This document shows, one piece after another, positions 9,712 to 46,140 of a DNA stretch of 64,000 nt; position 1 is the first letter of the stretch, and the number at the start of each line of letters is the position of its first letter. The translations under genes were made by a program, and so were the position numbers. The DNA is from Saccharicrinis fermentans DSM 9555 = JCM 21142 (lineage in GTDB: Bacteria; Bacteroidota; Bacteroidia; Bacteroidales; Marinilabiliaceae): positions 504,425-568,424 of the forward strand of contig NZ_KI912107.1 in the NCBI RefSeq assembly GCF_000517085.1. Reading direction: 5' to 3'. The notes beneath the pieces were generated by a model. That model was not told the DNA's origin and ran no database searches. It saw only the letters and a list, made by a program, of their open reading frames with translations.

Positions 9712-10057
9712 ATCATGAGGGCTTTTGAAAATATACCTTCCCGAGTAATTCGGCGAAGCCTGATCATGAGGGCCTTTGAAAATATACCTTCCCGAGTAAT
9801 TTGGCGAAGCCTGATCATGAGGGCTTTTAAAAATATACCTTCCCGAGTAATTCGGCGAAGCCTGATCATGAGGGCCTTTGAAAATATACCTTCCCGAGTA
9901 ATTTGGCGAAGCCTGATCATGAGGACCTTTAAAAATAAACCTTCCCGAGTAATTTGGCGAAGCCTGATCATGAGGGCCTTTGAAAATATACCTTCCCGAG
10001 TAATTCGGCGAAGCCTGATCATGAGGGCCTTTGAAAATAAACCTCCCCGAGTAAAAC
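9712..10057. repeat. Seven tandem 51-bp repeats (VNTR)
   Basis: Units begin at 9712, 9763, 9814, 9865, 9916, 9967 and 10018; the last is truncated near 10057. Each starts ATCATGAGG and contains CTTCCCGAGTAATTYGGCGAAG, a small hairpin whose 5-nt loop is closed by CCGA and TCGG. Units differ by a few point changes (TTCGG or TTTGG, GGGCTTTT or GGGCCTTT), which points to duplication of single and paired units. Because 51 is divisible by three, long open frames appear on both strands; I regard these as artefacts. Confidence 0.85.
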
Positions 10058-14705: not shown

Positions 14706-16721
14706 TTAATTATTTAATCTTCGTTTCATTTTAATGGCTCGTTTATAATGGGGGTTGATCATTAAACATTGGTTCAGTAACCGGTTTGCATTTGTTGTGT
14801 CGTTTAAAAGTTCTTTTAACTGCGCATAGGCTAAGTAGGTTTGATAGCTTTTATTATTATTTTCTAAGATCTCTTGGTAATATGTTTCTGCTTTTTCCAT
14901 TTCGCCATGGAGCAAAGCTGTTTGAGCCAGATAATACATGCTGGGCTCATACTGAGGTATCATTTTTAAACATTGGGTAAAAGCATTTTTGGCTTTTTTA
15001 TAATGGTTGTTTTTTAAGTATGATTTACCTAGGTTGATCCACGCAATTTCGTTTCCGGGATCCACCTGGGTGGCTCTTTGTAGGTGCTTAATGGCCTGTT
15101 GGTAGTTTGCTTTTTCGTAAGCTATTTTTCCCCGATAATCATCGTAGGTTTGCCTTTTGACGATGGCACAAACGGTTACTCCTTGAGTTTTGATGCATTT
15201 TATGGTGCCAGCTGGGGGCCATAATTTTTGTTTTATCTGTGCAGGTGCAATGGTTGTTCGGTAAAAAATACCATAATCCCAATCAGTATTTCCTCTCGAG
15301 TAATATGGTGTGTAGACCAGAGATATGGCTCTGTTACTTTTTTTTAGGTAGACATCTATTCCATAATTAGAAGCCACCTTTATCTGATTGGTGTCTTTTT
15401 TTTCGATATGTTCTTTTAACCATAAGGAAGCTTTACGAACGCTGTGGTAATAATAGTCTAATTCATAATTGATGGAAGCATCTTTATAATTGCCTGCTAG
15501 GCGGTTAAAATATGTGTATTCTATGGGGTGATTCTTGATTATAAATAGTACAGAAGGTAAAAGACTCAGCATAAATGCAAGGGATATTCCTAGTCGTATG
15601 GATTTAGCATTGATGCGATTTATGAGCCAAGACAGTGATGTGGAAGCTAAAATTACCAAAGGAGGATAGATGAATAACAGATGACGCCATGCTCCATATA
15701 CATTTGAATGGACTATAGATGTATAGGCAAAAGGGAAAATAATGACAAATATTAAAATTAGCTTCTGGAGAAATAAAATAGCTGATTTTTGTTTCTTTAG
15801 GAGCTCTATAACAGAAATGAGACAAAGAGGAAATATGATGATGGGGATGGTAATGATTACATATTTTATTAAATAGTATCTGGGTAACTGATCACTCCAA
15901 TAAATTTCTCCTTCAAATAGTTGACGAATTCGGATGGGGTAGTCAGACATCATCTTCATTGAAGTGAGTGGATGGATAATCGGGTTTTCAAGCGCATAGG
16001 GCCAGAATAGTAGTCCTATTAAATAGGATAAAAGAACAATGGTGGCCATGCGAAGTGCAAAAGGCATTATTTGTAGTGTATTGTTGTTCTGCTTTTGCAT
16101 GATAAGGAAAGTCATGCCCGCAAAGAAAATAAAGTAACAAAGTACCAGTAATCCTCCTGGACGAATGCTAAGGGTAAAGGCCATGGACAATGTTAATCCT
16201 AGCGCATGTTGTATTCGAATATTTTGTAGATGGGATATCAGCTTTATCATATAAAATAAGGAGGCAACATATCCTAAGGCAAAGGGTATATCTTTTAAGT
16301 TATTGAATGAATGTCCCATGAACCGGGGAGAGGCTGCCATTATCAATATGGTAAATATGGCAGCTCTATGGCCACTTAAATGTATAGCAAGGCGTGATGT
16401 AAATAAAATACAAAGCCAACCAATGATTGAATTGCAAATATGGCGGAATGTGTAAATATCTTCTATACCCAGTAAATGGGATAGTAGGGTGGTTAAATTG
16501 TCAAATGATTGACCATAATATTTTAAGTTGGTTACAGGAGTATGGATTGCCGACTTGTCCTGTCCCCAACTGGCAAAATATTGAAGCACTAACTCTGCTT
16601 GTTCCAGATGTACCTTTTCATCACCAGAGATGCCTGCGTCCAGGCTCATGATAGGCATTATCACCAGCAATGTCGCCAATAATAGATATACTGTATTTCG
16701 GGGTGACCTAAGCCAATTCAT
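14706..16721 (-). CDS. Polytopic GT39-like glycosyltransferase with C-terminal TPR repeats
   Basis: About 671 residues. Ten or so transmembrane helices (about 10-430) are preceded by a periplasmic loop with GISGDEKVH, the acidic motif of GT-C enzymes that use polyprenyl-phosphate sugars (GT39/PMT type). A soluble region of about 100 residues and at least three TPR repeats (about 545-665) follow. The start at ATG 16721 (MNWLRSPRNTVYLLLA) overlaps the end of the upstream GT2 gene by 14 bp, so a long N-terminal extension in the same frame is not used. With the GT2 enzyme it probably forms a pair that makes and then uses a lipid-linked sugar for an envelope glycan or glycoprotein. The TPR tail is unusual for GT-C enzymes. 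Confidence 0.75.
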   Translation of the reverse strand: MNWLRSPRNTVYLLLATLLVIMPIMSLDAGISGDEKVHLEQAELVLQYFASWGQDKSAIHTPVTNLKYYGQSFDNLTTLLSHLLGIEDIYTFRHICNSIIGWLCILFTSRLAIHLSGHRAAIFTILIMAASPRFMGHSFNNLKDIPFALGYVASLFYMIKLISHLQNIRIQHALGLTLSMAFTLSIRPGGLLVLCYFIFFAGMTFLIMQKQNNNTLQIMPFALRMATIVLLSYLIGLLFWPYALENPIIHPLTSMKMMSDYPIRIRQLFEGEIYWSDQLPRYYLIKYVIITIPIIIFPLCLISVIELLKKQKSAILFLQKLILIFVIIFPFAYTSIVHSNVYGAWRHLLFIYPPLVILASTSLSWLINRINAKSIRLGISLAFMLSLLPSVLFIIKNHPIEYTYFNRLAGNYKDASINYELDYYYHSVRKASLWLKEHIEKKDTNQIKVASNYGIDVYLKKSNRAISLVYTPYYSRGNTDWDYGIFYRTTIAPAQIKQKLWPPAGTIKCIKTQGVTVCAIVKRQTYDDYRGKIAYEKANYQQAIKHLQRATQVDPGNEIAWINLGKSYLKNNHYKKAKNAFTQCLKMIPQYEPSMYYLAQTALLHGEMEKAETYYQEILENNNKSYQTYLAYAQLKELLNDTTNANRLLNQCLMINPHYKRAIKMKRRLNN

Positions 16722-17652
16722 GGCGTTTAATTTTCTTTTGATCCGTATGGAATTCACGCACAAAATAAATGGGTCTATTCTGTGATTCACGATAAATGCG
16801 AAATACGTACTCGCCCAATATTCCAAGAAATATTAGCTGAATAGAACCCAGAAAAAATATACTGGTCAAAGTAGATGACCAGCCAAGGGGGGAGAGTGCC
16901 AATGTTTTTGAAAGAAGAATGTATATGCCAGCTAAAAAAGAAGTGATAATACCGATGATACCCATGATTAAACAGAATTTCAGTGGCAACTTTGAGAAAG
17001 AGAAAATGGCGTCACATGCCAATGTGAAAAGTTGGCGGGTGCTCATGGAACAGCCGGACCCTCGTTTCTCACGTTGGTAGCTGATGGATGTTTTTCTAAA
17101 GCCTATGAAATGGCGAAGTCCTGGTAGGTATCTGCTCTTCTCCGTTAATGTGCGTAAAGCATGGGTAGCTGCCTTATTTAGCATTGAAAAGTTGCCGATA
17201 TGTTCAATGTCTTCCATTGCTGATAGTCGTTTAAATAATTGGTGAAATATCCGGGTATATATATTTCGTGTGAATCGGGACGTGTTGGCTTTTCTATATC
17301 CATTTACGATATCAAAGGATCCGGAATTTAACAATGTGAACATTTGAGGGATTAATTCGGGAGGATCTTGTAGGTCTCCATCCATGAGTACCAAATATTC
17401 GCCCTGTGCATAATCAATACCAGCGGTGTAGGCTGCTTGATGTCCAAAGTTGCGTGATAAGGACATGATTTTGATTCGTTTATCAATGGTGTGGAGTTGA
17501 AGCAATAGATCCATACTATTGTCGGTAGATCCATCATCCACAAATAAGAGCTCAAAATCCTGCCCAGTGTGTTGGAGCGCTGTTATGGTACGCTTCACCA
17601 ACTCACCTAGCAGTGATTCTTCGTTGTATATGGGTATTACGACTGAAATCAT
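16708..17652 (-). CDS. GT2 polyprenyl-phosphate glycosyltransferase (DPM1/GtrB/ArnC-like)
   Basis: 314 residues: a GT-A catalytic domain (1-225) with VVIPIYNEE, DDGSTDNS and the metal-binding region DGDLQDPPELIP, then two C-terminal transmembrane helices (about 228-250 and 262-285). This is the form that transfers a sugar from a nucleotide donor to undecaprenyl phosphate on the cytoplasmic face. The stop overlaps the start of the GT39-like gene, a strong sign that the product is the lipid-linked donor used by that enzyme. The sugar cannot be deduced. Confidence 0.85.
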   Translation of the reverse strand: MISVVIPIYNEESLLGELVKRTITALQHTGQDFELLFVDDGSTDNSMDLLLQLHTIDKRIKIMSLSRNFGHQAAYTAGIDYAQGEYLVLMDGDLQDPPELIPQMFTLLNSGSFDIVNGYRKANTSRFTRNIYTRIFHQLFKRLSAMEDIEHIGNFSMLNKAATHALRTLTEKSRYLPGLRHFIGFRKTSISYQREKRGSGCSMSTRQLFTLACDAIFSFSKLPLKFCLIMGIIGIITSFLAGIYILLSKTLALSPLGWSSTLTSIFFLGSIQLIFLGILGEYVFRIYRESQNRPIYFVREFHTDQKKIKRHELA

Positions 17653-17737: not shown

Positions 17738-18871
17738 CTATAGCTCTTTCCAAATATTGCCTTCTTTGTTAGATTCTACTACATTTTTGATGAACTTCAT
17801 GCCACGTACTCCATCCAGTACGCCTGGGAATTCTCCATCGAAGGTGTCTTCTCCGCGTATAGATTTGGCCATCCCCTTGTAGATGTTACCCAATGCCTCG
17901 TATATTCCCTCTGGGTGTCCCGATGGCATCATATGACTGGCTTCTGCAAATTGAGTGTTATATTCATGTGCCGGCTTATAAACTTTTGTGGGTTCGGTAT
18001 CACTTAGCATATATAAAAAGTTAGGATTCTCTTGACTCCATTTTAAGCTGGCCTTGGAACCATAGATGCCAATGGTCAGATTGTTCTCTTCACCTGCTGT
18101 TACTTGGCTTGAACGGATCACTCCTTTGATATTGTGGGGTAACTGCAGTAGTACTGTTCCATCCAGATCAAGTTGAATATGGTCTTTCACTGGACTTAGA
18201 TCAGAAAGTACACGGCTTACACAAAGACCAGTGGTATATTCAATTAAATGAAATGCATGTACGCCTATATCTCCCATGCAACTGCTTAGTCCTGCGTGCT
18301 GAGGGTCTAGTCGCCATACTCCTTGAATACCGGAGTCTGTTCCTTGAATCATCGAATTTACCCATCCCTGGTAATATTGCGCATCAACGCGATGGATATT
18401 GCCCAGTATTCCGGATTTAACCAGTTCTCTCATCTGGCGTACCATGGGGTAACCAGCATAAGTGTGTGCAAGGGCAAAGCTGAGACCGCTTTTCTTTACT
18501 GTTTTCTGTAAATCTTCTGCTTCTTCTACGGTAACGGTCATCGGCTTTTCGCAGATCACGTGAAAGCCTGCTTTTAATAATTTGCTGGCCGATTGGTAAT
18601 GAAGTGCATTGGGTGTTACAATGGATACTGCTTCTATTCTTTCGTTGGCTGATAGAGCCATCTCCCTTTCAATAAAAGTATTTAGATCGGGGTAACACCT
18701 ATGGGTGTCCAGGCCTTCGTGTGCAGCAAACAGCTTTCCTTTTTCAAAATCCTTACTAAAGACTCCACCTATGAGTTGAAAATCGTTGCATATACGGGAG
18801 GCTCTTCGGTGTGCATCTCCTATAAAAGCGCCGGTTCCGCCTCCAATCATTCCTAATTTTATTTTTTTCAT
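17738..18871 (-). CDS. Gfo/Idh/MocA family oxidoreductase, cytoplasmic
   Basis: 377 residues. An N-terminal Rossmann fold begins KLGMIGGGTGAFIGDAHRRA, with the family EKP motif in HVICEKPMTV (about 110-118), followed by the alpha/beta C-terminal domain with GDIGVHAFHL. There is no signal peptide, unlike the two Tat-exported paralogues at 22918 and 24390. Such enzymes oxidise or reduce hydroxyl groups of sugars and inositols with NAD(P). As the last gene of the co-directional sugar locus it may act on the product after import. The substrate is unknown. Confidence 0.85.
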   Translation of the reverse strand: MKKIKLGMIGGGTGAFIGDAHRRASRICNDFQLIGGVFSKDFEKGKLFAAHEGLDTHRCYPDLNTFIEREMALSANERIEAVSIVTPNALHYQSASKLLKAGFHVICEKPMTVTVEEAEDLQKTVKKSGLSFALAHTYAGYPMVRQMRELVKSGILGNIHRVDAQYYQGWVNSMIQGTDSGIQGVWRLDPQHAGLSSCMGDIGVHAFHLIEYTTGLCVSRVLSDLSPVKDHIQLDLDGTVLLQLPHNIKGVIRSSQVTAGEENNLTIGIYGSKASLKWSQENPNFLYMLSDTEPTKVYKPAHEYNTQFAEASHMMPSGHPEGIYEALGNIYKGMAKSIRGEDTFDGEFPGVLDGVRGMKFIKNVVESNKEGNIWKEL

Positions 18872-18951: not shown

Positions 18952-19953
18952 CTACTGGTTTTCCGTGTCGAAGGCTGCATCAAACGCTAAGTTTGAGGGT
19001 GTAAAATCGACCTGTTTCACATAACGACATGATTCGGAGGCTCCTTGTTCTCTGTCCATGGCACCATCTTCCCATTCAACAGAAAGGGGGCCTGTGTAAT
19101 TTATGCGATTGAGCGCTCTGATTATCTTTTCAAAGTTGATATTACCTCGTCCCATACTTCTGAAATCCCAAAAGCGTCGCGCATCACCAAAATTTGTATG
19201 TCCACCAAAAACACCCGCTTCTGTGGGCGTATCACTCCATGCGACATCTTTCATATGTACGTGTACAATATGTTGGGCGAATTTGTTGATAAATTTCACA
19301 TAGTCAACTCCTTGGTAACCCAGGTGGCTGGGGTCGTAGTTAAAACCGAAGCTGGGGTGGTAATGAATGGCTTGCAATGTTCTTTCGGCCGAGGCAATAT
19401 CAAAAGCTATTTCAGTGGGGTGAACTTCTAGTGCGTACTGGATTCCTAATTTATCATATGCATCCAGTATGGGAGTCCAGCGTTCGGAAAAGTCTTTGAA
19501 TCCTGCATCTATCATTTCTTGTGGTGCAGGTGGAAAGGCGTACAATAAGTGCCAGATAGAACTGCCGGTGAATCCGTTCACAATTTTTACGCCCAGTCTT
19601 TTAGCTGCTTCGGCTGTTTTAATTATTTCAGCTGCGGCTCTTTGTCTGACACCCTCGGGTTTACCATCGCCATATATATAGTTGGGTAAGATTGCTTTGT
19701 GGCGCTCATCTATGTGGTCACATACGGCTTGCCCAATCAGGTGGGTTGAGATAGCATAGACTTTTAAATCGTATTTTTTTAGGATGGCCTGTTTTTCATC
19801 ACAATAGGCCTGATCTGCTTTGTCCACCTCAAAATGGTTTCCCCAGCAAGCTAATTCTAGTCCGTCGTAACCAAAGCTATGGGCTTTTTGACATATGGTT
19901 TCAAAATCTAAATCGGCCCATTGACCGGTGAATAAGGTGACTTTTCTGCTCAT
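18952..19953 (-). CDS. Sugar phosphate isomerase/epimerase-like TIM barrel, cytoplasmic
   Basis: 333 residues of the xylose-isomerase-like/AP-endonuclease-2 TIM-barrel superfamily. Likely metal ligands are visible: Glu in [10 protein letters not shown], Asp-His in [11 protein letters not shown], His in VHVHMKDV and Glu in SVEWEDG. There is no signal peptide. Members act as isomerases, epimerases or, in 3-keto-glycoside pathways, as lyases. Located between a cytoplasmic oxidoreductase and a DUF1080 protein, it probably processes the same sugar intermediate. It is distinct from the exported TIM barrel at 20812. Confidence 0.85.
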
Positions 19954-19975: not shown

Positions 19976-20731
19976 TTATAGTTCTCGAATCCAAATATTA
20001 CGATAACTCACTTTGTTGTTGTGATCTTGTAAAGAGATGGGCCCCTTGGCCTCATGGTACTTGTATGAGGGGCGTCCAATAAATGTTGTTGGTCCTTTTA
20101 TTTCAACATGGTTCTGTACCAATATGCCATTATGTATGACCGTAATATATGCAGGTGATTTTAAGGTTTTATCGGAATTAAATGTGGGTGCCGTGAATAT
20201 GATATCATAACTTTGCCATTTTCCAGGCTTTAAGGTGGCATTGGCCAAGGGAATATGTTGTTTGTAAATGCTGGATGCCATCCCGTTATAATAGGTTTCG
20301 TTTTCAAAAGAATTCAATACCTGTACTTCATATAAGCCCATTAAGAAGATACCACTGTTACCGCATTTCTGGCCTGTTTTTCCGGCTTTTACATCTTGTA
20401 CTGGAGTTTTCCATTCTATATGTAATTGACAATCACCAAATTTCTGCCTGCTTTCTATTCCACCTTTTGGGGGGCTGACTTGCATCTTTTTTCTTTTCAC
20501 CTTCCAGTCGGCAGGCTCGTTGCTTCCTTGTTTTTTCCATCTATCCAGATTTTTTCCATTAAACAAAACGATGGCGTCCGATGGCGGATTTCTTTTTGTT
20601 CCAGGGCTCACGACTGGCGGTTTTCTACTCCAATCTTCGGTTTCCTTGGGTTGCATCTTATGATTGTCCTGGCCATATGAAACAGAAAATCCGGTAAAGA
20701 GAAGTGTTAGTATTAGTAATCTTATTTTCAT
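19976..20731 (-). CDS. Exported DUF1080 (3-keto-disaccharide hydrolase-type) protein
   Basis: About 251 residues from ATG 20731, with a signal peptide (MKIRLLILTLLFTGFSVSYGQ). The mature part is a concanavalin-like beta-sandwich with the DUF1080 hallmarks: AIVLFNGKNLDRWKK, FGDCQLHIEW, GNSGIFLMGLYEVQVL and the closing ISLQDHNNKVSYRNIWIREL. Family members have been tied to 3-keto-glycoside cleavage or hydration. Its neighbours, a Tat-exported oxidoreductase and an exported TIM barrel, fit that chemistry in the periplasm. Exact activity is inferred. Confidence 0.85.
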   Translation of the reverse strand: MKIRLLILTLLFTGFSVSYGQDNHKMQPKETEDWSRKPPVVSPGTKRNPPSDAIVLFNGKNLDRWKKQGSNEPADWKVKRKKMQVSPPKGGIESRQKFGDCQLHIEWKTPVQDVKAGKTGQKCGNSGIFLMGLYEVQVLNSFENETYYNGMASSIYKQHIPLANATLKPGKWQSYDIIFTAPTFNSDKTLKSPAYITVIHNGILVQNHVEIKGPTTFIGRPSYKYHEAKGPISLQDHNNKVSYRNIWIREL

Positions 20732-20811
20732 GGGTGTGTGATTCATTTTTTGTTAAAATAACGGTGACTTATCAAATGTATGTCGTAAGGCAGTGCTGTT
20801 CAGTATTTTAA

Positions 20812-21624
20812 TCACTGGGTGTTCAATTTGAAAAAGAGAATGTTTTTGTGTAGGTCTGGTACAGGATTGTCCCAGTTGTATTCATGTTCAATGACAAACT
20901 TACCCTTAAACTGTTGACGTTCTAATTCACTAAAAACCTTTGGCCAGTCCATAATTCCTTCTCCAAAGACCACCGCATGTCCTTGTTTATCTGTGCGGTT
21001 CACATCTTTTGTATGGATTTCAAATATGTGTCCTTCTAGTTTTTTCAGGCATTCGCTTGCCTCTAAACCTGAGCGTGTCCAGTGACCAATATCCGCACAT
21101 ACACCGATGTATTGACTGCGGTGAACCAAGGCTTTTAATACAATATGAGGATTCCAATAGGGGGTTGGCTCAGGGTGGTTGTGAATAGCCACTCTTATTT
21201 TGTATTGTTGGCATAAGCTATCTATAAATGGGAGTAAGGCCTGTTGCGGCTCCGAGACAATGGTTTTGATATTCATTTTTTCAGCGAATTCAAATAGCTG
21301 TTCCCATTCGTTTTCATGTGTTGGAGTGACAACACCATAACTACTAATTTTTATATGATGTTTTTTTAGCAGTGCTTTTAATCGAATTATCTCGTCGTCC
21401 GACATGGAAAAGTGGGTTGTGCCCTGCTGGTCTGGTGCTACTTTTTGTTCTGGGTACAATTCTATGTGCCTAATACCTAGCTTTTCCATTTGTATCAGTG
21501 TTTCGCTCAAAGTAAAACGATGAAAGGTCCAGGCCTGACATGCGAGCTCCCATTGCTTGGCTTCGGTCTTGGATGTGGATAGCATAGTGCAGATTATTAA
21601 AATAAAAAAATATGAAATTCTCAT
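20812..21624 (-). CDS. Exported sugar isomerase/epimerase-like TIM barrel
   Basis: 270 residues with a signal peptide (MRISYFFILIICTMLSTSKTEA). The mature protein is a xylose-isomerase-like barrel with likely metal ligands: Glu in SEPQ, His in AIHNHPEP, Asp in CADIGHW, His in EIHTKDV and Glu in VIEHEYNWDN. Export of this fold is typical of glycoside-modifying loci and not of sugar-phosphate metabolism, so a free or glycosidic sugar is the likely substrate. It is 18 bp from the ThuA gene, in the same transcript. Confidence 0.82.
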   Translation of the reverse strand: MRISYFFILIICTMLSTSKTEAKQWELACQAWTFHRFTLSETLIQMEKLGIRHIELYPEQKVAPDQQGTTHFSMSDDEIIRLKALLKKHHIKISSYGVVTPTHENEWEQLFEFAEKMNIKTIVSEPQQALLPFIDSLCQQYKIRVAIHNHPEPTPYWNPHIVLKALVHRSQYIGVCADIGHWTRSGLEASECLKKLEGHIFEIHTKDVNRTDKQGHAVVFGEGIMDWPKVFSELERQQFKGKFVIEHEYNWDNPVPDLHKNILFFKLNTQ

Positions 21625-21641: not shown

Positions 21642-22865
21642 CTAATTCTTAGATTGTAGGCGTCTTATGGCAAACTGCGCCATCTCGGCAGTTTCGGCTT
21701 TTTTAGACAAGGCTTTTAATACGGAAATGGATTTAGGAGAGCCTAACCAGCTTATTTCTTTGCAGATGAAATTTTTAGCATCCGTAGTACAATCATCAGC
21801 ACTTAATAGTTTAATCATTTCGTCTTCAACTTTCTCCAGGTAATCTTTATCAGTGCTATGATTTCTGATGCGCTGCAGAATCAGGTTGAGGTATTTTTTA
21901 GATTTGCCGATTTCGTATTTCCTGGCATTTCTGAAAAGATCCTCAAGCGTGAAATCCTTGTAAGCAGGTAAGATGAGTGCTGAGCTTTGGTTGGGAAGAT
22001 CTTCTGGTATTGCTTGCGTGACCTTACCGGTGGCTGCCCATTCTGTTCCTCTCTGCATTGCATAAATAAAAAATGCACTTTTGTATGGCGTCATATCTTC
22101 ATCTTGGCCCACATGACCAAGTACGTTATGGAAAATGCGTCCCTTGCCGTAGTTTACCGTAAATAAGATAGGCTCGTGGTTGCCTGTCCCTCCTGTTTTA
22201 GGGTTAGAAAAGGCTGTAGCCAATACATTCATATTTTCTGCAGGACCTCTTAATTTGCCGTATAATTCATCGGTTGCATGCATGCTTTTCATTGGTAACC
22301 CCTTCATGATAGGGTGTTGAGGTGCTCTGGTATCTATAACAAATGGAGTTTTTTTACCATGGGTTCCTCCTTTACCAGGGGAGTTGTCTTTGATAATTTT
22401 CCCATTCTCCCAACGTACGTAGGGGCCATCTTTTTCTGTCCTACCTTTCCAACCCCCCAAGGCAGTCATTTGGTTGAACGCTTCCCATTGCGGAAAGCTG
22501 TTGTTAGTACCGTGAAAAACAACCACGCCACCACCATTTTTGACATATTCTTCAAAATTTGTCTGGGTGGTATTGGGCCATGGATCGCCATCGTAATCAA
22601 TAATGACTACGTCGTAAGATTTAAAATCCGGCGTGAAGGAAGACATGTCGGCTCCTTGTTCTGGACTAATAACTACATCAACAGAAAATAAACCTGTATT
22701 GTTGATGATCTGTTTTACTGCATTGTGCGATGCTTTCCAATGATGTGATTTGTTGCTCTGTCCGGTGACAATTAGTGCATCATATTTTTTAGTACCACAA
22801 GAACTTATTGTCAGTATGCAGCCAAGTACCAAATAATAAAGCGATAGTTTTATGTAGCTTTTCAT
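21642..22865 (-). CDS. ThuA-like domain lipoprotein
   Basis: 407 residues. A lipoprotein signal (LVLGCILTISSC, Cys about 23) is followed by a ThuA-like class-I glutamine-amidotransferase fold (about 28-270, with VIDYDGDPW, GGGVVVFHGTNNSFP and GKGRIFHNVLGH). A helical C-terminal region of about 120 residues resembles HEAT-like repeats. ThuA proteins are linked genetically to trehalose and other disaccharide use through 3-keto sugars, though their reaction is unsettled. It sits between the exported TIM barrel and the Tat-exported oxidoreductase. Confidence 0.82.
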   Translation of the reverse strand: MKSYIKLSLYYLVLGCILTISSCGTKKYDALIVTGQSNKSHHWKASHNAVKQIINNTGLFSVDVVISPEQGADMSSFTPDFKSYDVVIIDYDGDPWPNTTQTNFEEYVKNGGGVVVFHGTNNSFPQWEAFNQMTALGGWKGRTEKDGPYVRWENGKIIKDNSPGKGGTHGKKTPFVIDTRAPQHPIMKGLPMKSMHATDELYGKLRGPAENMNVLATAFSNPKTGGTGNHEPILFTVNYGKGRIFHNVLGHVGQDEDMTPYKSAFFIYAMQRGTEWAATGKVTQAIPEDLPNQSSALILPAYKDFTLEDLFRNARKYEIGKSKKYLNLILQRIRNHSTDKDYLEKVEDEMIKLLSADDCTTDAKNFICKEISWLGSPKSISVLKALSKKAETAEMAQFAIRRLQSKN

Positions 22866-22917: not shown

Positions 22918-24270
22918 TTATTGTTGAAGCTGCCAAGGTTTTCGGAAAGGGCGGCTTAGTAATAGGTTTGCTTTAGAGCTGTTTGTGAATTGTTCAGTTT
23001 TACCATCCCATTTCAGTTTTTCATTGGTAAGCATGGCTATTTCGCCTAACAAGCCTACACTGATGGAGTTGTGCGCAATACGTGCCGGAGTGATAGTTTC
23101 TTTGCCCGATTTAATGCAATCAATAAAATTTTGCCAATGGTTATTACTTTGATAGATAGGTGTTTTTATCTGCGAGGCCGGTGTGTCTAAAATGCTTTGA
23201 TCGCTTGCCCACAGACCTTTTCTACTTACGTGAATCCAGCCTTTCTCTCCGTACCAAACGGTTCCCATTCCCCATCTCTTATGTTGCATATCGGTTCCTT
23301 CACCTTTTCTGTTGGGGTAGGCACTTGCATTGGCTACACGGAGTGTGACACCAGTGTCATATGTGCATGTGAAGTCGTAGGCCGTTGGTACATCGTAAAT
23401 GCCTTCGATAGGATAAACCCCTTTCCCTTCTACTTCAACGGGTGTTTTATGGTCATATCCTAATCCCCAGTGCGCAATGTCTATATGATGGCCGGCCCAA
23501 TCAGTCAGTTGACCACCAGAATAATCCATGATCCATCTCCAATGAAAATGCAAAACACCGCGGAATGGTACTTTGGGTGCAGGGCCGAGCCACATATCCC
23601 AGTCAACACTTTCTGGTGGGGTTTGAATAGGTGGCGTGCCAATGGATGCCTTTCCATCAGGCAATCCTACCTCTACGTGGTTAACCTTTCCGATAGCTCC
23701 ATTCTGAACCAGTTCTGCTGCTCTATGAAAATTAGCTACGGATCTTTGCCAACTGCCAGTTTGCCATATGATATTATTTTGGTCTACTGCCTCTACAATG
23801 GCTCTTCCTTCTTTGATGGTGCGAGCTAGTGGCTTTTCGCCATAGATATGGATGCCTTTGTTGGCTACATGGGTGGCCATTATGCTATGCCAGTGATCAG
23901 GAAGAGCGAGGATGGCTGCATCCAGATGCGTTGTTTCCAGTAAATCTCTGAAATCTCTGTATGCATGGGCATCGTATTTACCACGGATATCTGTAATTAT
24001 TTTTTTTGCGTTTTCTATTTGTTTGTTGTCTACATCGCATAAGGCAACTAATTCAACTTGTTTATTCTTGAGATTTAGTAGATTCTTCATGTTAGCACGT
24101 CCCATCCCTCCGCATCCGATAAGCCCCATTTGTATTCGGTCACTAGGAGCCGTAAAGCCATTTCTACCTAAGGCAGATGCAGGTATAATAGAGGGGAAAA
24201 GGGTAGCGCCGGCCACTGCAGCAGCGCTTTTTTTTATGAAGTTTCTACGACTTTGAGATTTATTTTTCAT
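22918..24270 (-). CDS. Tat-exported Gfo/Idh/MocA oxidoreductase 1
   Basis: 450 residues. A twin-arginine signal (QSRRNFIKKSAAAVAGATLF) precedes a Rossmann domain (IQMGLIGCGGMGRANMKNLL) with the EKP motif in HIYGEKPLAR and a C-terminal domain with DWAGHHIDIAHWGL. Tat export of this family (as for glucose-fructose oxidoreductase) implies folding with bound NAD(P) in the cytoplasm and action in the periplasm. It is likely to oxidise a sugar hydroxyl of a glycoside. How the cofactor is reoxidised is not known; the tetraheme protein encoded at 25771 is a candidate partner by proximity only. Confidence 0.87.
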   Translation of the reverse strand: MKNKSQSRRNFIKKSAAAVAGATLFPSIIPASALGRNGFTAPSDRIQMGLIGCGGMGRANMKNLLNLKNKQVELVALCDVDNKQIENAKKIITDIRGKYDAHAYRDFRDLLETTHLDAAILALPDHWHSIMATHVANKGIHIYGEKPLARTIKEGRAIVEAVDQNNIIWQTGSWQRSVANFHRAAELVQNGAIGKVNHVEVGLPDGKASIGTPPIQTPPESVDWDMWLGPAPKVPFRGVLHFHWRWIMDYSGGQLTDWAGHHIDIAHWGLGYDHKTPVEVEGKGVYPIEGIYDVPTAYDFTCTYDTGVTLRVANASAYPNRKGEGTDMQHKRWGMGTVWYGEKGWIHVSRKGLWASDQSILDTPASQIKTPIYQSNNHWQNFIDCIKSGKETITPARIAHNSISVGLLGEIAMLTNEKLKWDGKTEQFTNSSKANLLLSRPFRKPWQLQQ

Positions 24271-24389: not shown

Positions 24390-25730
24390 TTAGCTCGATT
24401 TAATTGGAGTTCCTGGTATGGGAACAGGAAACTCCATGTCCACATCACCCATGTGATATTTTTGCGGACCCAGTCGCAGTTCGGATTTCATGATTTCTTC
24501 CCAAGTAATCTTTTTTCCCGTATAAGCCGATTCGCGTCCCATGATAGCTGTTAGATTTGATAGGGCGGTTTGTTCTGCTTCATTAACATATTTATTGGTT
24601 CGTATGGCAGTAACTAAATGGATGTGTTCCTGTATATAGGGTGAAATCTTGACCACATTGGTTGATTTTCCATCCTTGTCTTTGGGGTATTCGTATTGCC
24701 ATTTTATACGTCCATCATGGTTGTAAATGGTGTTTTTGCAGTTTGTGTAGCCTTTAGTGCCCATGATAAATTCGCCGGTGGCATTGGCACAGTTATCTAT
24801 TTGACGACTCATGCTATGTGAAAATAATCCATTGCCATAATCGAAATCAATGCTAAAGAAGTCGTACTGATCGCCAGTTACCCTTCGGTGCCTTCCTCCA
24901 TAGCCAACGGCACTGATGGGGTGTTGACCAGTAAACCAATTGATCACATCTATATTGTGAATGTGAGTGTCCAATATGTGGTCGCCACATAGCCAGCAGA
25001 AATTATTCCAGTTGCGAAGCATATATTCCATATCTGTCCAACCTTCTTGTCGACGACGGAACCACACATGCTCCTGGTTCCAGAATGCTTTAGCCCCCAC
25101 AATATCTCCGATAGCACCGTTTACTACCTGTTTATAAGTAGCGATATAATCGCGTTGGTGGCGGCGTTGGGTCCCGGTGACCACATTTAATCCTTTTACT
25201 TTTGCCTTTTTAGCAGTAGCAATAATGGAACGTATGCCAACAGGGTCTACAGCAACCGGCTTTTCTAAAAATACATGTTTGTTATGTGCGATTGCTGTTT
25301 TAAAATGTTGGGGACGAAAGTGGGGTGGTGTAACAAGTAATACCACATCAACGTCGGTTTTAATTAGTTTTTCGTATGCATCTAAGCCAACAAAACATTT
25401 TTCGTCAGGAACGTCTAATTTGTATTGCTTAAGTCTGGACTTACAAGCTTCTACCTTATCTTCAAAAACATCAGCCAGTGCCCCAACTTCTACACCAGGG
25501 CCTGTACTTAAGAAATTTAATAGGGCACCAGTTCCTCTGTGGCCACATCCGACTAAACCGGCTTTTAGCTTTTTGCCTTTAGGAGCTCTGTCTAGCAATG
25601 GAGGTAAACCTAATTCTTCGTTTGTTTTGTGCCCACAGGATGATAGTATGGATGATAGTCCGCTTGCTCCGATCACAGTTGCGGCTGTTGATTTCATTAA
25701 AAAACTTCTTCTGGATTCTTTATTTTTCAT
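24390..25730 (-). CDS. Tat-exported Gfo/Idh/MocA oxidoreductase 2 (probable lipoprotein)
   Basis: 446 residues. A Tat signal (ESRRSFLMKSTAATVIGASG) ends in ILSSCG, so the mature protein may be lipid-anchored. The Rossmann domain begins LKAGLVGCGHRGTGALLNFL, EKP occurs in HVFLEKPVAV, and the C-terminal domain holds GDHILDTHIHNIDVINW. It is only distantly similar to the neighbouring Tat oxidoreductase, so this is probably a different step or substrate and not a recent duplicate. It lies 40 bp from the cytochrome-SUMF1 gene upstream. Confidence 0.87.
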   Translation of the reverse strand: MKNKESRRSFLMKSTAATVIGASGLSSILSSCGHKTNEELGLPPLLDRAPKGKKLKAGLVGCGHRGTGALLNFLSTGPGVEVGALADVFEDKVEACKSRLKQYKLDVPDEKCFVGLDAYEKLIKTDVDVVLLVTPPHFRPQHFKTAIAHNKHVFLEKPVAVDPVGIRSIIATAKKAKVKGLNVVTGTQRRHQRDYIATYKQVVNGAIGDIVGAKAFWNQEHVWFRRRQEGWTDMEYMLRNWNNFCWLCGDHILDTHIHNIDVINWFTGQHPISAVGYGGRHRRVTGDQYDFFSIDFDYGNGLFSHSMSRQIDNCANATGEFIMGTKGYTNCKNTIYNHDGRIKWQYEYPKDKDGKSTNVVKISPYIQEHIHLVTAIRTNKYVNEAEQTALSNLTAIMGRESAYTGKKITWEEIMKSELRLGPQKYHMGDVDMEFPVPIPGTPIKSS

Positions 25731-25770: not shown

Positions 25771-27300
25771 TTATTCAATGATGTCAGCTTCACAGACAAC
25801 ACGAAAGCCCACATCAATACAGTCTGAGTACCACCAAATACTTTTAGGCATTTGAGGGTCTGTTTGTAACCACCTGCGGGTTTCGGTAAAGCCTCGTGCT
25901 GCACTTCTCAACTCACTGGCATCTGATTTAAAGGACCCACCGCGTATTACGTGTTCTCTTCCCTTGCTGGGTCCCTGGGGGTCAATGGTTGTTTCTTTTG
26001 TATATTGAGTATAGGTTTGCGGATGATAATAATCGGAACAGAATTCATGAACGTTGCCTATCATATTTTTTAGCCCGAATGGATTAGCTGCTACCCGTGA
26101 AGGCTCTTGTGTTTTACCGTCACTGTTGGCATCAAAAATTACGTAGGAGGCGATGATGGCAGTGTCAATACCAAATATTTTGTTCCAGATTCCTTTTTTG
26201 GAATAATCGCTGGGGACACCATCAAAAAAATAGGGAGTAGATGTGCCTCCTCTGGCTGCATATTCCCATTCGGCTTCCGTAGGCAAACGATATTTTTTAC
26301 CACTTACTTGTGATAACCACTTACAGTATGTTAGCGCAGCGTGATGGCTCATGGTGATAGCCGGACGTTTTCCTTTGCCCCATCCCTGATCTGGAGCGCC
26401 CCATGGTGGAGTTGCCCCTGAAATAGCATCCACATCATCTTTACTTTGTTGTATTTTCTGTACAGTCTCTTTCCTGCCTTCAGCAGCAGTAGCATTAAAA
26501 AAGGCCAGGTATTCATCCCATGTTACTTCTATTTTTCCCATAAAGAATGGGCTTACTTTTACTTTTCGTTGCGGACCCTCATCATTTTGTCTATACTTTT
26601 CTTTAGAGGGACTTCCTATGATAAACTCACCACCCGGAATAGCCACCATATCGAAAGATACACTGGTGCCTGGTATTTGTTCTGTGAAATTTTCAAATTG
26701 GTGGACGATAGTGGCTGTGGTGAATTTTTCCTGAGCTACATTGTGGGTGGCGAAAGCAATATTGTGCGTATGTAGGGCATGGGGATTGTAGTGTCCAGTA
26801 TGCATATGGCAGTTTAAACAGGTCATTTCCTCTCTTCTTGATTCGTAATATAAATGAGAATCTTCTCCTTTTACTGATAGACCAGAAGGAAAGATGTTGG
26901 AATGACATTTTAAACAGGATGCCTCATAAACAAATTTGTCGGCCTTTTCTTTTGTTCTTTTAGATTCCCATTTGTAATCCGCGGAATCCTTAAATAGCAT
27001 TCCGTACAGGTCTTTTGATCCATGTTTGGCTTTGGCCATTAATTGCCCATGTCCTTTGGGTGGAAGGTGGCAGTCTACACAGTGTACAATCACACCAGAC
27101 TTGTTGTCAACATGAGCTGATAATCGCCATGAGTCTTCTGCATGATCATGTATGTGACATGAAAAACAGTATTGATCTGTTGACGTATATTCAACAGCCT
27201 TACCTCCGGAGTAACTAAAAATAAAAGCGGCTATTATACCCAGTAAAAAAATAAAGTAGAATTTGTAAAATTGTCTTTTTAACCAAGATTTTTTAATCAT
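25771..27300 (-). CDS. Tetraheme NapC/NirT-like cytochrome fused to a SUMF1-like domain
   Basis: About 509 residues. One N-terminal membrane anchor (about 12-32), then four CxxCH heme sites (CFSCH, CVDCH, CLKCH, CLNCH) within 160 residues, as in NrfH/NapC quinol dehydrogenases. A SUMF1/FGE-like domain follows (about 215-505: MVAIPGGEFIIGSPS, YRLPTEAEWEYAARGG, GNVHEFCSDYY, HVIRGGSFKSDASELRSAARG). The two catalytic cysteines of formylglycine-generating enzymes, expected just after RGGS, are absent (Lys-Ser-Asp-Ala instead), so it is not a sulfatase activator. Its position at the head of the sugar locus suggests electron transfer between the quinone pool and periplasmic oxidoreductases. That role is inference. 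Confidence 0.85.
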   Translation of the reverse strand: MIKKSWLKRQFYKFYFIFLLGIIAAFIFSYSGGKAVEYTSTDQYCFSCHIHDHAEDSWRLSAHVDNKSGVIVHCVDCHLPPKGHGQLMAKAKHGSKDLYGMLFKDSADYKWESKRTKEKADKFVYEASCLKCHSNIFPSGLSVKGEDSHLYYESRREEMTCLNCHMHTGHYNPHALHTHNIAFATHNVAQEKFTTATIVHQFENFTEQIPGTSVSFDMVAIPGGEFIIGSPSKEKYRQNDEGPQRKVKVSPFFMGKIEVTWDEYLAFFNATAAEGRKETVQKIQQSKDDVDAISGATPPWGAPDQGWGKGKRPAITMSHHAALTYCKWLSQVSGKKYRLPTEAEWEYAARGGTSTPYFFDGVPSDYSKKGIWNKIFGIDTAIIASYVIFDANSDGKTQEPSRVAANPFGLKNMIGNVHEFCSDYYHPQTYTQYTKETTIDPQGPSKGREHVIRGGSFKSDASELRSAARGFTETRRWLQTDPQMPKSIWWYSDCIDVGFRVVCEADIIE

Positions 27301-27591
27301 AGTGCGCATTCTTTTTTTATGGTCACTAAGTAAATGGTATGGCCTTATTGGACAATTAAAATTGTGTTTAATGCGTATTAAAAAGTTATTAATTGGATAT
27401 TAATTTTATTTTTAATAAGCAGTATATCAGTGTTGTATGTGTATTTGTAAAAAGTATAAAGTTTGCGCAATGAAAGAATGAAGTAAGTGCGGATAAAAAG
27501 TTATTTTACGACTTGCAGTTCGGAAAAATGAAAGGTATTGAACATGGTGTTGGATCGTTTTAGGGGTAATTAGGGGCGGTGAGGGAGTGAC

Positions 27592-30141
27592 TTATCGGAT
27601 TAGATCCTCGTAAGAGATGGGGAGTTCTTGATTGTATATTTTTTGATAGCGTTGTTGATAGGATTTGAATAGAAATCGGGCCTCGTTATTTTGACGTAGC
27701 ACCAATAGTGCTTTTATTTTGTATTTTATGGCATCTTCATTAAGATCGTCGGTTTTTAATATTCGATTGGCAATCTTCACTATTATTTCTGGATGCTGGC
27801 TCATGTCAAAGTCAAACATTAAACGGGTTAGTACGTCTATTACTTTGTTGGAAAATTTGCCTTTGATTTCATCAAAAGTGCTTTCTTGGCAGTCTTGTAA
27901 ATAAGCTCCCCGCTGAACGGTACTTAAAAAAATATGTAGGTTTTCACGGTTATTAAATAGGTTACTATCGAGTTTCTCCAAACATTCGTAATAATCACAA
28001 TATACATTGCTTGTTATTTCAAGTTTCCATCTCTCGTGGTGATTTGATATGTATATCTTGTCCATTGCTTCCAGTATGTTGCGCAGTTTACTGAGGGAAA
28101 CGCCTCTGTTGTTGATGGCTTTCTTGCGATCGAAATTTGGCCATATCATTTGAATGAATTCATCTGAAGAGATGCCATGGGGTTCTTCTTTGCTGTAAAT
28201 AAGTAGATAAATAAATATTTGTTTCAGACGTGGGGTGAAACAGTGGGTAATATCTTCTCCATTTTTATCCAATATTTGAAAGTCTCCAAACAATTTAATA
28301 GCATTCTTTTTGGGGGCTTTTTGTTTTAGGTCAATATTCTCTATCACTTTGTCTGTGGGAGTTGTTTTGCTTTTTCGGGTAAAGAGGATGAGGGTTACCA
28401 ATAAAAATATAAATGCGCCCATCCAGTATTTGTTTCGCATGATGAAATGAACAATGGAATCTTCTTGTATATCGGAAATATCCTGCGATAAATGCCAAAT
28501 TTCCTCTTTTCCTAGTGCTCGGTTCCAGATGAGTAAATTATCTATTCTTCCTTCAAAAAGGTTATCCTGACTGATAGAGCGGCCAATGTAAATATGGGAA
28601 TTGCTAACAAAGGGAGGATGATTTAAAGAAGAGACGTCTTCTTTACCGTCTACAAAAATAGCTTGCTCTTGGGTGTATTTAGTATACCTCCATACCACAT
28701 GATACCACTTGCCGGGTATAAATTTGGTATTTCCCCATAAGTCGTTGGAAAAGAAACCAAAATAGGGTCTGTTGTCTCTGGATTGAAGGTGCAAGCCTCC
28801 TCTGTAATAATTTTCTTGCGTTCCTAATATGGAGAAGTCGCGTTGATCTGCTTCATTGTTTCTGGCTAGTTTAATCCACGCACTTACTGTAAAATCAGAA
28901 TCGGAGATGCCTAGATCATTTGCTTTAGCAATGGTAATGTAGGATTTGCCATCTAATTCAATGACGTTGTTTCGTTGGCCATCATGGACAATTTTGCAGC
29001 CTTTGTTTTCTAACTCGAACTGATGAGGTCCTTCGTCCTTAATGTTGCTATCGAATGGATAGTAGGCACGTATGCTATGATTGAGGGTGAGAGGAATGGC
29101 AATGAAATTTTGAGTGACATCTTTTGTGATGCCCTCAATGTGTATTTCTTCAGGTACAAACTTAAAACCAGGACATTCGGGGCGAAGTTTTACTACCTCG
29201 TTTAAGGTAGCAGGAAAATTATATTCGCCGTATGTTACCGCATTGAAATCCCCTTGCCAAAACACTTTGTCGATGGCTTGTCTATTGTAGGAAATGGTAC
29301 CTGAGATGCTTCGCTGACTCAGTAGATGACCTTTTAATCCCTTGTAGTTCTTCTGCTTGTCGTCATATACTATAAAGTTAATGACTTTGCCGGTGTTCTT
29401 CCAGCTGTTTAAGGCGTGAGAAATGAAAAAAGGATCTTGATTTGTGTCTATCCATGTCTGGCGACTCTGGGAGGGGGGATCGTGGGCAAATGTTTGATAG
29501 CTTGTTAGGTATAGTAGCTTGTTTTGTATGTTTCCATGGCAAAATTCTCCGTTTAGTTTGGGCTCAATTTCTTTAGAATCGCAGGGATTGGCTGCGTAAT
29601 CCCATAAATAATGGATAAAGGGAGATGGTGAATTTTTGCCTGTGTAAGCAAAGCAAATGATTTGTTTGTTGTTCGAAATTAGGTGAGCCATCGTAGGCCA
29701 TTGGGCATTGAAATCACCTTGCCAAATATGTTGATGGATGGGGTGAGATTTTAAAAAATGAACAAGGAGCTTAGGATCAAAGTGGTAGTTAAAAAATATG
29801 CTTAGCACATGAAGGGTGTCTTGCTGGCAGTATGTTGCAAGAGAATCACAAACAGTGGCGAAGTCGGTGATCCATTTTTTATTTTGATGAAGTACTTCTA
29901 TCTTATTGCTGTCTTTGCTGAGTTGTAAATCAAGTATAAAGCCATTTATTCCTTGATTGTTTAGTCGGTTTGTAGGGTGTGATTTGAAATTATACAAGCT
30001 GTTATGCTCATAATGATTGATCAGATTGATCACTTCGTTGTATTTGATCTCCGCTAACTTTTTCTGTGCTACTATCGTTTGTGTGAAGAGCAAGCAGGTG
30101 ATCCATGAAGTTAAATATAGTTGAAAGCGAAAAGAACGCAT
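27592..30141 (-). CDS. Transmembrane one-component regulator: PLC-like, LamG, membrane helix, SARP-like DNA-binding and BTAD domains
   Basis: About 849 residues from ATG 30141. After a signal peptide (to about residue 26, TIVAQ) comes a region resembling PI-PLC-X phosphodiesterases (about 27-340: HNS, LNNQGINGFILDL, WPTMAHLI, a second block FPATLNEVV). A LamG beta-sandwich follows (about 357-552) and one transmembrane helix (about 569-590). The cytoplasmic part is a winged helix of OmpR/SARP type (about 613-710, IKLFGDFQIL, AINNRGVSLSKLRNIL) plus a BTAD-like helical domain to the end. It should sense an extracytoplasmic ligand, perhaps a glycan, and bind DNA without a kinase. It lies upstream of, and in the same direction as, the sugar locus it may control. 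Confidence 0.75.
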   Translation of the reverse strand: MRSFRFQLYLTSWITCLLFTQTIVAQKKLAEIKYNEVINLINHYEHNSLYNFKSHPTNRLNNQGINGFILDLQLSKDSNKIEVLHQNKKWITDFATVCDSLATYCQQDTLHVLSIFFNYHFDPKLLVHFLKSHPIHQHIWQGDFNAQWPTMAHLISNNKQIICFAYTGKNSPSPFIHYLWDYAANPCDSKEIEPKLNGEFCHGNIQNKLLYLTSYQTFAHDPPSQSRQTWIDTNQDPFFISHALNSWKNTGKVINFIVYDDKQKNYKGLKGHLLSQRSISGTISYNRQAIDKVFWQGDFNAVTYGEYNFPATLNEVVKLRPECPGFKFVPEEIHIEGITKDVTQNFIAIPLTLNHSIRAYYPFDSNIKDEGPHQFELENKGCKIVHDGQRNNVIELDGKSYITIAKANDLGISDSDFTVSAWIKLARNNEADQRDFSILGTQENYYRGGLHLQSRDNRPYFGFFSNDLWGNTKFIPGKWYHVVWRYTKYTQEQAIFVDGKEDVSSLNHPPFVSNSHIYIGRSISQDNLFEGRIDNLLIWNRALGKEEIWHLSQDISDIQEDSIVHFIMRNKYWMGAFIFLLVTLILFTRKSKTTPTDKVIENIDLKQKAPKKNAIKLFGDFQILDKNGEDITHCFTPRLKQIFIYLLIYSKEEPHGISSDEFIQMIWPNFDRKKAINNRGVSLSKLRNILEAMDKIYISNHHERWKLEITSNVYCDYYECLEKLDSNLFNNRENLHIFLSTVQRGAYLQDCQESTFDEIKGKFSNKVIDVLTRLMFDFDMSQHPEIIVKIANRILKTDDLNEDAIKYKIKALLVLRQNNEARFLFKSYQQRYQKIYNQELPISYEDLIR

Positions 30142-30241
30142 AGATTTTTTACGAAATGTTTGGTCTAAAAATATATATTCCATCCAACTTAACCAACAAA
30201 TTATCCAATTACAGTTTTTGATGTTTTTTGCTAACGAATAT

Positions 30242-45333: not shown

Positions 45334-45443
45334 AAATATAATTTTTAAATTATGGACAGAGTTGAGTTTACAGTCTCGACTAAAGTCCCTTTTTTTTTAT
45401 TTATTGGCCTATTTACACACCTGGCTATTTATTTGCTTATTGC

Positions 45444-46140
45444 TTAAGACTGTTCTCTCGTAAAAAAGCTATGGTAATTTTTAGAAACATTTAATGGATC
45501 ACCAACTTCCTTTTGAAGTTTTTGAAACTGTTTAAAAAGCCTATCCATTACTTTCTTGTATTTTATGTCACTTGCCAGATCATTCATTTCTTCAGGATCT
45601 TCAACCATATTGTATAGTCTGACCACGTTGGCAAGTGGGTAAATAATCATTTTATATTTATCCGTTCGGATCATACGTTGATTGCTTAGGTAGGCACCAT
45701 AAACAGCCTTATATCCTTTTTTAGAATTGTTTTTACAAAGAGGTAAAAGAGAATTGAAATCTACGTCTTTTATTACATTACTTCCTGCAATATCCAATGA
45801 GGTTGCCATAACATCCTGTAAATATACCTTTTCTTGGATGACTTTGCCTGCTTTAATGCCTGGGCCTGCTAATAGTAAAGGAACTCTGATACTGCGGTCG
45901 TACATATTTTGTTTGCCAACAAAGCCATGGTCTCCTAAAGCCAAACCATGATCAGCAGTAAAAATGATGTAGGTGTTTTTTGCTTTTCCACTCGCTTCAA
46001 GTGCATCCAATATACGGCCAATCTGATTATCCATGTGAGTAATAAGCGCGTAGTATTCTTGACGGTTTACTTTTATGGAATATGCTGTTCGTGGAAAAGG
46101 AGCTAATTTTTCATTATAATTTGATTTTAAATATATTTTG
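45444..46140 (-). pseudogene. C-terminal fragment of a type I sulfatase
   Basis: About 230 residues matching the C-terminal half of S1 sulfatases: EYYALITHMDNQIGRILDAL, FTADHGLALGDHGFVGKQNMYD, RVPLLLAGPGI, RLYNMVEDPEEMNDLA. The N-terminal half with the CxPxR formylglycine site is missing. The frame upstream of about 46140 runs on into unrelated sequence that overlaps the end of another gene fragment in a different frame. The remnant therefore lacks its nucleophile and cannot be an active sulfatase. IS256 lies 55 bp downstream of its end. Confidence 0.8.

Follow-up and report, generated by a model that had tools for sequence, protein, structure and literature searches.

The question raised by this locus is what function may be served by a membrane-anchored tetraheme cytochrome that is joined, in one polypeptide, to a SUMF1 domain. 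The locus lies in a window of Saccharicrinis fermentans DSM 9555 = JCM 21142 (the whole stretch of DNA that was analysed, 64,000 nucleotides, from a genome of 5.98 Mb in four contigs), where the gene CYTSUMF (25771..27309, minus strand) encodes a protein of 512 amino acids (aa) with an anchor and a NapC/NirT tetraheme part (residues 1-180) followed by a SUMF1 domain (residues ~205-512). An earlier note on this DNA had given the span as 25771-27300; the open reading frame (ORF) was correctly chosen, but position 27300 corresponds to the internal codon M4 and the frame reaches 27309. The fusion claimed in that note has been borne out, as Pfam matches both halves: Cytochrom_NNT (PF03264, NapC/NirT) covers residues 14-177 with 96.7 bits (curated cut-off 24.1) and FGE-sulfatase (PF03781) covers residues 220-475 with 147.3 bits (cut-off 23.3). 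The gene was also said to head a locus, which fits its place as the first of ten co-directional genes reaching 14706. Our reading, with a probability of about 0.5, is that CYTSUMF and the product of the following gene, the Gfo/Idh/MocA dehydrogenase GFO_A, make up a dehydrogenase module of two proteins that is attached to the membrane and would feed electrons from sugar to menaquinone.

In a contig scan for relatives of CYTSUMF, the best 80 of 198 were kept, all titled Bacteroidota or groups within, and the closest named match among those listed is Labilibacter marinus, followed by Saccharicrinis aurantiacus. Since each of the 80 kept loci has an ORF of 480 aa or more and the fusion is carried by 36 of 149 related genomes (source genome counted in), a chance origin is excluded, and it is near certain that the fusion represents a real, conserved family. 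GFO_A was found to be the next same-strand gene after CYTSUMF in 77/80 loci; it is the direct ORF neighbour in 76 of them, with a median gap of 21.5 base pairs (bp), and a small antisense ORF is called in between in the other one (L061). In the remaining three loci the contig stops 0 (L085), 238 (L106) and 378 bp (L103) past CYTSUMF. Moreover, the 149 genomes were searched twice, with CYTSUMF at E<=1e-20 and with GFO_A at E<=1e-60, and counted by hand from the tables. The fusion was present in 36 genomes and GFO_A in the identical 36. The remaining 113 had neither at these E-value limits, and 21 of them show a SUMF1-only match. The Fisher p of 2e-35 for this co-occurrence ignores relatedness and so is indicative only. 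By coordinates the two genes adjoin in 34/36 genomes, and in G026 and G036 they are non-neighbours on different contigs. The earlier note had asked for a search of the same fusion and its neighbours and would have given up its idea if these were always unrelated genes; the linkage to GFO_A has instead turned out to be extremely strong, and the two proteins very probably act together.

The near-obligate partner GFO_A (24390..25730, minus strand) has a twin-arginine start and a lipobox-like Cys32 ahead of its Gfo/Idh/MocA dehydrogenase part. R7, R8 and F10 of the start are invariant; the twin-arginine translocation (Tat) signal was read by eye, and the Tat profile model gave no match. The NAD-binding Rossmann domain (PF01408) scored 53.3 bits, and the residues of the G-x-G-x-x-G motif and around the EKP lysine (G61, G63, G66, E156, K157 and P158) are invariant in 45 aligned sequences. 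The structure model has a confident Gfo/Idh/MocA fold, with a predicted local distance difference test (pLDDT) of 87.1 and a predicted template modelling score (pTM) of 0.85, and its nearest folds include scyllo-inositol dehydrogenase, RgNanOx, aldose-aldose oxidoreductase and GFOR. Naming GFO_A as a BT2158-type enzyme was rejected, the NF058561 score being 35.6 bits against a cut-off of 750. In copies per genome, at least seven GFO_A stand against one CYTSUMF in G107 (loci L177-L179), three against one in G084 (L186) and two against one in G014, and G016 and G022 have two of each. The multiple paralogues beside a lone CYTSUMF look as if one cytochrome served many dehydrogenases, and the ratio in G107 is what would be predicted if the cytochrome were a shared acceptor.

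The tetraheme domain (residues 14-179; 26773..27270, minus strand) has four CxxCH sites (C48/C51-H52, C77/C80-H81, C132/C135-H136 and C164/C167-H168), the extra invariant histidines His54, His66, His152 and His173, and the pair Lys93/Asp100. An alignment of 63 homologues shows no change at any of the twelve heme-motif residues, and across 81 sequences their conservation is 97% or higher. In the AlphaFold2 model of CYTSUMF, residues 6-42 form an N-terminal helix and the SUMF1 fold is present, the mean pLDDT being only 71.7 and the pTM 0.60. The four heme sites and the membrane anchor that had been noticed earlier are confirmed. In the alignment with NrfH (structure 2j7a), Lys93 and Asp100 correspond to Lys82 and Asp89, which we take to be the NrfH quinol site, and they are kept in 80/81 and 81/81 CYTSUMF-type sequences, respectively. 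The heme 1 motif is CxxCHxH in 81/81 sequences, against CxxCHxM of NrfH. NrfH was rejected as a name on its TIGR03153 equivalog score (67.2 bits, cut-off 134.2), and the NapC equivalog cut-off was not reached either. CYTSUMF shares with NapC/NirT/NrfH the N-terminal anchor, the four CxxCH and the Lys and Asp aligned with those of NrfH, whereas it differs from them in its C-terminal SUMF1 domain and in a linked gene that encodes a Gfo/Idh/MocA protein and not a nitrite or nitrate reductase. In the source genome, the cytochrome c assembly family PF01578 is matched once, and, as a side observation, there is a separate second NapC/NirT-family match (G000:C3:5584125-5584562, a 199-aa open frame).

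The SUMF1 half, not the cytochrome, is the wider partner of GFO_A in Bacteroidota, a point that had escaped the earlier note. In a phylum sample of 395 genomes, where up to three candidates per genome were scored for CYTSUMF and up to four for GFO_A, 70 genomes matched CYTSUMF at 1e-30; the full fusion was present only in G000, G492 and G494, and the remaining matches cover the SUMF1 half alone. Twenty stand-alone loci (L133-L152) were selected manually among the better-scoring matches, and a GFO_A homologue (37-41% identity) adjoins the stand-alone SUMF1 in 15/20 by ORF calls and in 16/20 when L146 is added by coordinates. In L147 a small antisense ORF separates the two genes, and in the exceptions L133, L134, L135 and L150 GFO_A lies elsewhere in the genome. 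In 20 control loci with other-type SUMF1, chosen by hand among weaker matches of both CYTSUMF searches, a Gfo match was found in 0/20, six of these loci being shorter than 7 kilobases; the ORF caller discards overlapping ORFs, and it missed the L146 GFO_A and may miss others, in the controls too. Further, where the match reaches residue 505 or beyond, a GFO_A homologue (E<=1e-50) is present in 41/41 genomes by hand count, against 1/29 (G161) of the genomes with only other SUMF1 matches, a contrast made less independent by 28 of the 29 belonging to one genus. In the SUMF1 tree, one branch (support 100/99) has the 49 fused sequences on one side, another (100/98) delimits the 19 stand-alone ones, and the two groups are separated from 13 controls (100/100). 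The GFO_A tree splits likewise, its fused side being weakly supported (56) and the other side having a value of 93. In the simplest reading of these trees, which requires that the controls are a suitable outgroup, the tetraheme part would have been fused once, after the SUMF1-GFO_A pair existed.

The SUMF1 domain (residues ~205-512; 25774..26697, minus strand) is marked by a signature loop, D294-AISGATPPWGAPDQGWG, and a tail, DPQMPKSIWWYSD. It has the SUMF1/FGE fold and is devoid of the two active-site cysteines of FGE: the first of these corresponds to Ser462 (GGSFLC in 6s07, GGSFKS in CYTSUMF), and the residues next after it are without Cys. The domain had been described as cysteine-less, which holds for this catalytic pair but not for the rest of the protein sequence, as C329, C424, C497 and C506 are present. 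The NCBIfam equivalogs for PvdO (93.6 bits, cut-off 500) and GldK (99.9 bits, cut-off 350) were not reached. CYTSUMF thus differs from FGE, PvdO and GldK (PF03781) by having no active-site Cys pair and by its DxxSG[AP]TPPW-like loop and DPQxPKSxWW tail. The idea of a nonheme-iron or FGE-like catalytic site in this domain was not adopted, with neither a Cys pair nor metal ligands recognised, though a nonheme-iron site may be present. A loop D-x-x-[ST]-x-[AP]-[ST] recurs, with some variation, in the Gfo-linked SUMF1 proteins, as does a tail DPQxP[KR]SxWW, and in a comparison confined to the loop, it was not found in 17 control SUMF1 sequences. In L199, L207 and L209 the linked SUMF1 is cut down to 257-298 aa, and because these shortened forms keep both loop and tail, the sequences suggest that the two elements are the working surface. 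On balance, docking of GFO_A is the role that we favour for the domain.

In the proposed mechanism, GFO_A as an exported lipoprotein would oxidise a sugar or glycoside outside the cytoplasm with NAD(P) staying bound, the SUMF1 domain would dock GFO_A and perhaps relay for it, and the tetraheme NapC/NirT domain would accept the electrons and hand them to menaquinone. Processing of the oxidised product (probably 3-keto) may then fall to the operon's ThuA, DUF1080 and TIM-barrel proteins. The earlier note's idea of electrons passing from periplasmic sugar oxidation to quinone is in this way supported in part. Here we infer the physical binding, the bound NAD, the electron direction, the substrate and the step from hydride to single electrons. 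That the substrate is a sugar or glycoside seems likely, and for an electron flow from GFO_A to quinone we see about an even chance, the chief gap being how the hydride of bound NADH would reach a heme.

A number of observations weigh against this mechanism. Without a flavin or comparable group, of which none was identified, direct transfer from NADH to a c-type heme is unfavourable. In many Gfo/Idh/MocA enzymes the NAD is regenerated internally and no acceptor is required, and for most NapC/NirT proteins characterised to date the reaction is the oxidation of quinol, i.e. the opposite direction. Confidence of the CYTSUMF model is low in the cytochrome half and in the signature loops. A CxxCH protein is present in only 3/20 stand-alone loci, so the SUMF1-GFO_A pair does not generally require a cytochrome; in L133 and L134 these are planctomycete-type cytochrome domains and in L148 a Tll0287-like protein. 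In the reverse test, on 20 loci with further GFO_A copies, a SUMF1 of the subfamily was nearby in only 7 (L192, a few genes off; L196, divergent; L198, L199, L205, L207 and L209); L210 has an other-type SUMF1 and 12 have none recognised, and in L200, L203 and L204 the GFO_A gene itself was not recovered by the ORF caller. The surplus GFO_A copies of G107, G084 and G014 are without a CYTSUMF of their own. The 378 bp of L103 hold repeats and no GFO_A start, and this locus may be a true exception. Lastly, GT2/GT-C genes (14706-17652 in the window) occur in about half of the 80 loci, for which the proposed module offers no explanation.

The usual direction of the characterised NapC/NirT proteins and the retention of the residues aligned with the NrfH quinol site would suit a reverse flow, in which menaquinol passes electrons through the tetraheme part and SUMF1 to GFO_A or another periplasmic acceptor, e.g. 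for keto-sugar reduction. The neighbourhood, however, looks catabolic, G107 has its single CYTSUMF against at least seven GFO_A, and no known terminal reductase is present among the ten co-directional genes, which makes such a flow distinctly unlikely. GFO_A may also be redox-neutral, with an internal NAD cycle as in GH109, GFOR and RgNanOx, SUMF1 merely anchoring or maturing it and the cytochrome either rescuing enzyme stranded with NADH or doing an unrelated job. Elsewhere a SUMF1 by itself, usually with no cytochrome, is paired with a GFO_A homologue, and RgNanOx, aldose-aldose oxidoreductase and GFOR are among the fold matches, both of which would agree with this idea, but a mere anchor would not need a tetraheme part that was apparently fused once and has been kept with every heme residue in all aligned sequences, and we consider a redox-neutral GFO_A rather unlikely. 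SUMF1 itself might be the catalyst, drawing on the hemes for an oxidative chemistry like that of PvdO or EgtB, with GFO_A acting on a related substrate or on its product, but neither a catalytic Cys pair nor a metal site was recognised in it. Moreover, some carriers are known anaerobes (e.g. Alkaliflexus), which speaks against the use of O2, and some stand-alone forms are shortened but retain loop and tail; catalysis by SUMF1 is very unlikely.

ApbE is the enzyme that attaches flavin mononucleotide (FMN) to extracytoplasmic proteins. An apbE gene was found in 7/20 stand-alone loci (L133, L136, L138, L140, L142, L146 and L149) and in 5/20 loci chosen by GFO_A (L198, L205, L207, L208 and L209), six genomes feeding both of these sets (12/40 combined). 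It was present in 1/80 fused loci (L103), in 0/16 further loci, mostly of fusion-bearing genomes, and in 0/20 controls. Among the scanned stand-alone and GFO_A-chosen loci, none had a recognisable standard ApbE target; a stricter flavinylation-motif scan of L133-L152 gave nothing, and a looser one of the five apbE loci L198, L205 and L207-L209 gave two matches, in unrelated-looking genes. The source genome has two apbE places away from the CYTSUMF locus, one of them matched in two pieces. The motif is given as D-x-x-[S/T]-G-A-[S/T] in PMC12052999. The window loop D294-A-I-S-G-A-T300 fits it exactly, as do the loops of 37/81 sequences (window counted), and Pro replaces Ala299 in 44/81. The stand-alone loops are mostly D-x-x-[ST]-x-P-[ST], with departures at the first place (A or E in L198 and L146) and at the fourth (A or P in L141, L151 and L146). 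Flavinylation was rejected as the principal explanation on account of the Pro in 44/81 and in most stand-alone loops, and SUMF1 as a flavin carrier is extremely doubtful. The recurrent apbE is a lead that hints at a flavin in stand-alone systems, and it would fit a division in which electrons leave GFO_A by a flavin in these systems and by hemes in the fused ones. As a long shot, the module may belong to a new class of quinone-linked extracytoplasmic dehydrogenases with a captive nicotinamide in place of flavin or pyrroloquinoline quinone. A Cys-less SUMF1, possibly with ApbE-attached FMN at T300, would convert hydride to electrons. In Marinilabiliales the fused tetraheme part would receive these, and more distant Bacteroidota, in which apbE is often next to the pair, would use other carriers.

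Among known systems, lactose 3-dehydrogenases of the LacABC type have three components including a flavoprotein subunit, whereas no flavoprotein (GMC) subunit was found when looked for among the ten genes of the window. According to PMC9007349, membrane-bound LacABC oxidises lactose in the Caulobacter periplasm and a DUF1080 protein is proposed as the 3'-ketolactose hydrolase, while in Pedobacter the dehydrogenase mattered and the DUF1080 genes gave no phenotype. Membrane-bound periplasmic sugar oxidation next to a DUF1080 protein is the common point, and the window cluster looks like a counterpart of LacABC in which the enzyme uses a nicotinamide and the electrons leave by another path, by analogy and not by membership. 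The 3-keto-glycoside pathway BT2156-BT2160 of Bacteroides thetaiotaomicron also brings Gfo/Idh/MocA and DUF1080 proteins together, and it is not known to have a cytochrome-SUMF1 partner. The scores of GFO_A (35.6 bits) and GFO_B (176 bits) also lie far under the BT_2158 cut-off of 750. BT2157 contains DUF1080 (PMC9007349), and deletions of BT2157 or BT2158 had no growth defect on raffinose-family sugars in PMC11501099, a result that calls for caution with any 3-keto-pathway reading. With Zymomonas GFOR and Caulobacter aldose-aldose oxidoreductase, GFO_A shares the Gfo/Idh/MocA fold. GFOR is periplasmic with a tightly bound cofactor, both enzymes recycle the cofactor with a second sugar, and we know of no cytochrome partner for either.

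The literature searched, which includes PMC9007349, PMC11501099, PMC10628242, PMC8238504, PMC12052999 and PMC10979944, covers the field in part and does not establish absence from print; it contains no description of the CYTSUMF fusion or of a SUMF1-GFO_A pairing, and the pair is probably a so far undescribed route feeding sugar electrons into the respiratory membrane. Exported Gfo/Idh/MocA enzymes are widespread in Bacteroidota. If our reading is true, a co-inherited cytochrome would explain, for one group, the reoxidation of NAD bound outside the cytoplasm, a SUMF1 subfamily would gain a role, and glycan breakdown in aquatic and sediment Bacteroidota would have a new respiratory entry point. 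Being compact and recognisable by two sequence signatures, the pair lends itself well to testing.

The neighbourhood of CYTSUMF is one of sugar metabolism. On the minus strand, GFO_A is followed by GFO_B (22918..24270), a Gfo/Idh/MocA protein with a Tat signal by model TIGR01409, whose best named match, NF058561 BT_2158_fam, reached 176 bits, below the cut-off of 750. Next come a ThuA-family protein (21642..22865; PF06283) with a lipoprotein-like start by eye, a TIM-barrel sugar isomerase/epimerase (20812..21624; PF01261) with a signal-peptide-like start by eye, a protein with a DUF1080 '3-keto-disaccharide hydrolase' domain (19976..20746; PF06439), a TIM-barrel isomerase (18952..19953; PF01261) and the Gfo/Idh/MocA protein GFO_C (17738..18871), the last two without a signal peptide by eye. 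The series is closed by a GT2 glycosyltransferase (16708..17652), with relatives on the same strand in 40/80 CYTSUMF loci, and a membrane protein (14706..16826) with a weak PMT_2 match (0.0037) and tetratricopeptide repeats (TPRs); in relatives, a 689-aa TPR protein comes after GT2 on the same strand, its cluster being present in 41/80 loci. Neighbour clusters were found in 42 (GFO_B-like) and 35 (ThuA) of the 80 loci, many of which are cut by contig ends. Of the two Tat oxidoreductases to which the earlier note linked CYTSUMF, only GFO_A (77/80) is a near-obligate partner. In three loci inspected elsewhere the neighbours are glycan-catabolic: a sulfatase, a GH109-type Gfo and a LacZ-type GH2 in L182, a fucosidase and a hybrid two-component regulator in L180, and DUF1080, a TIM barrel and galactokinase in L183.

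Upstream of CYTSUMF, 282 bp away, lies the gene of a possible membrane sensor-regulator (27592..30183, minus strand; 863 aa) with a Laminin_G_3 domain, relatives of which stand just upstream of CYTSUMF in 19/80 loci. By eye, the protein spans the membrane once and ends in a SARP/BTAD-like region, and it may be a membrane-bound one-component glycan sensor. Elsewhere in the window, a 51-bp tandem repeat (9712-10054; 6.7 copies, 94% matches) is readable as an ORF of 17-aa repeats and may be no gene. At 44101-47239 (minus strand), a Mutator-family transposase stands next to separate fragments that resemble a sulfatase C-terminus, a chitobiase-C/PDZ piece and a regulator propeller, apparently broken genes.
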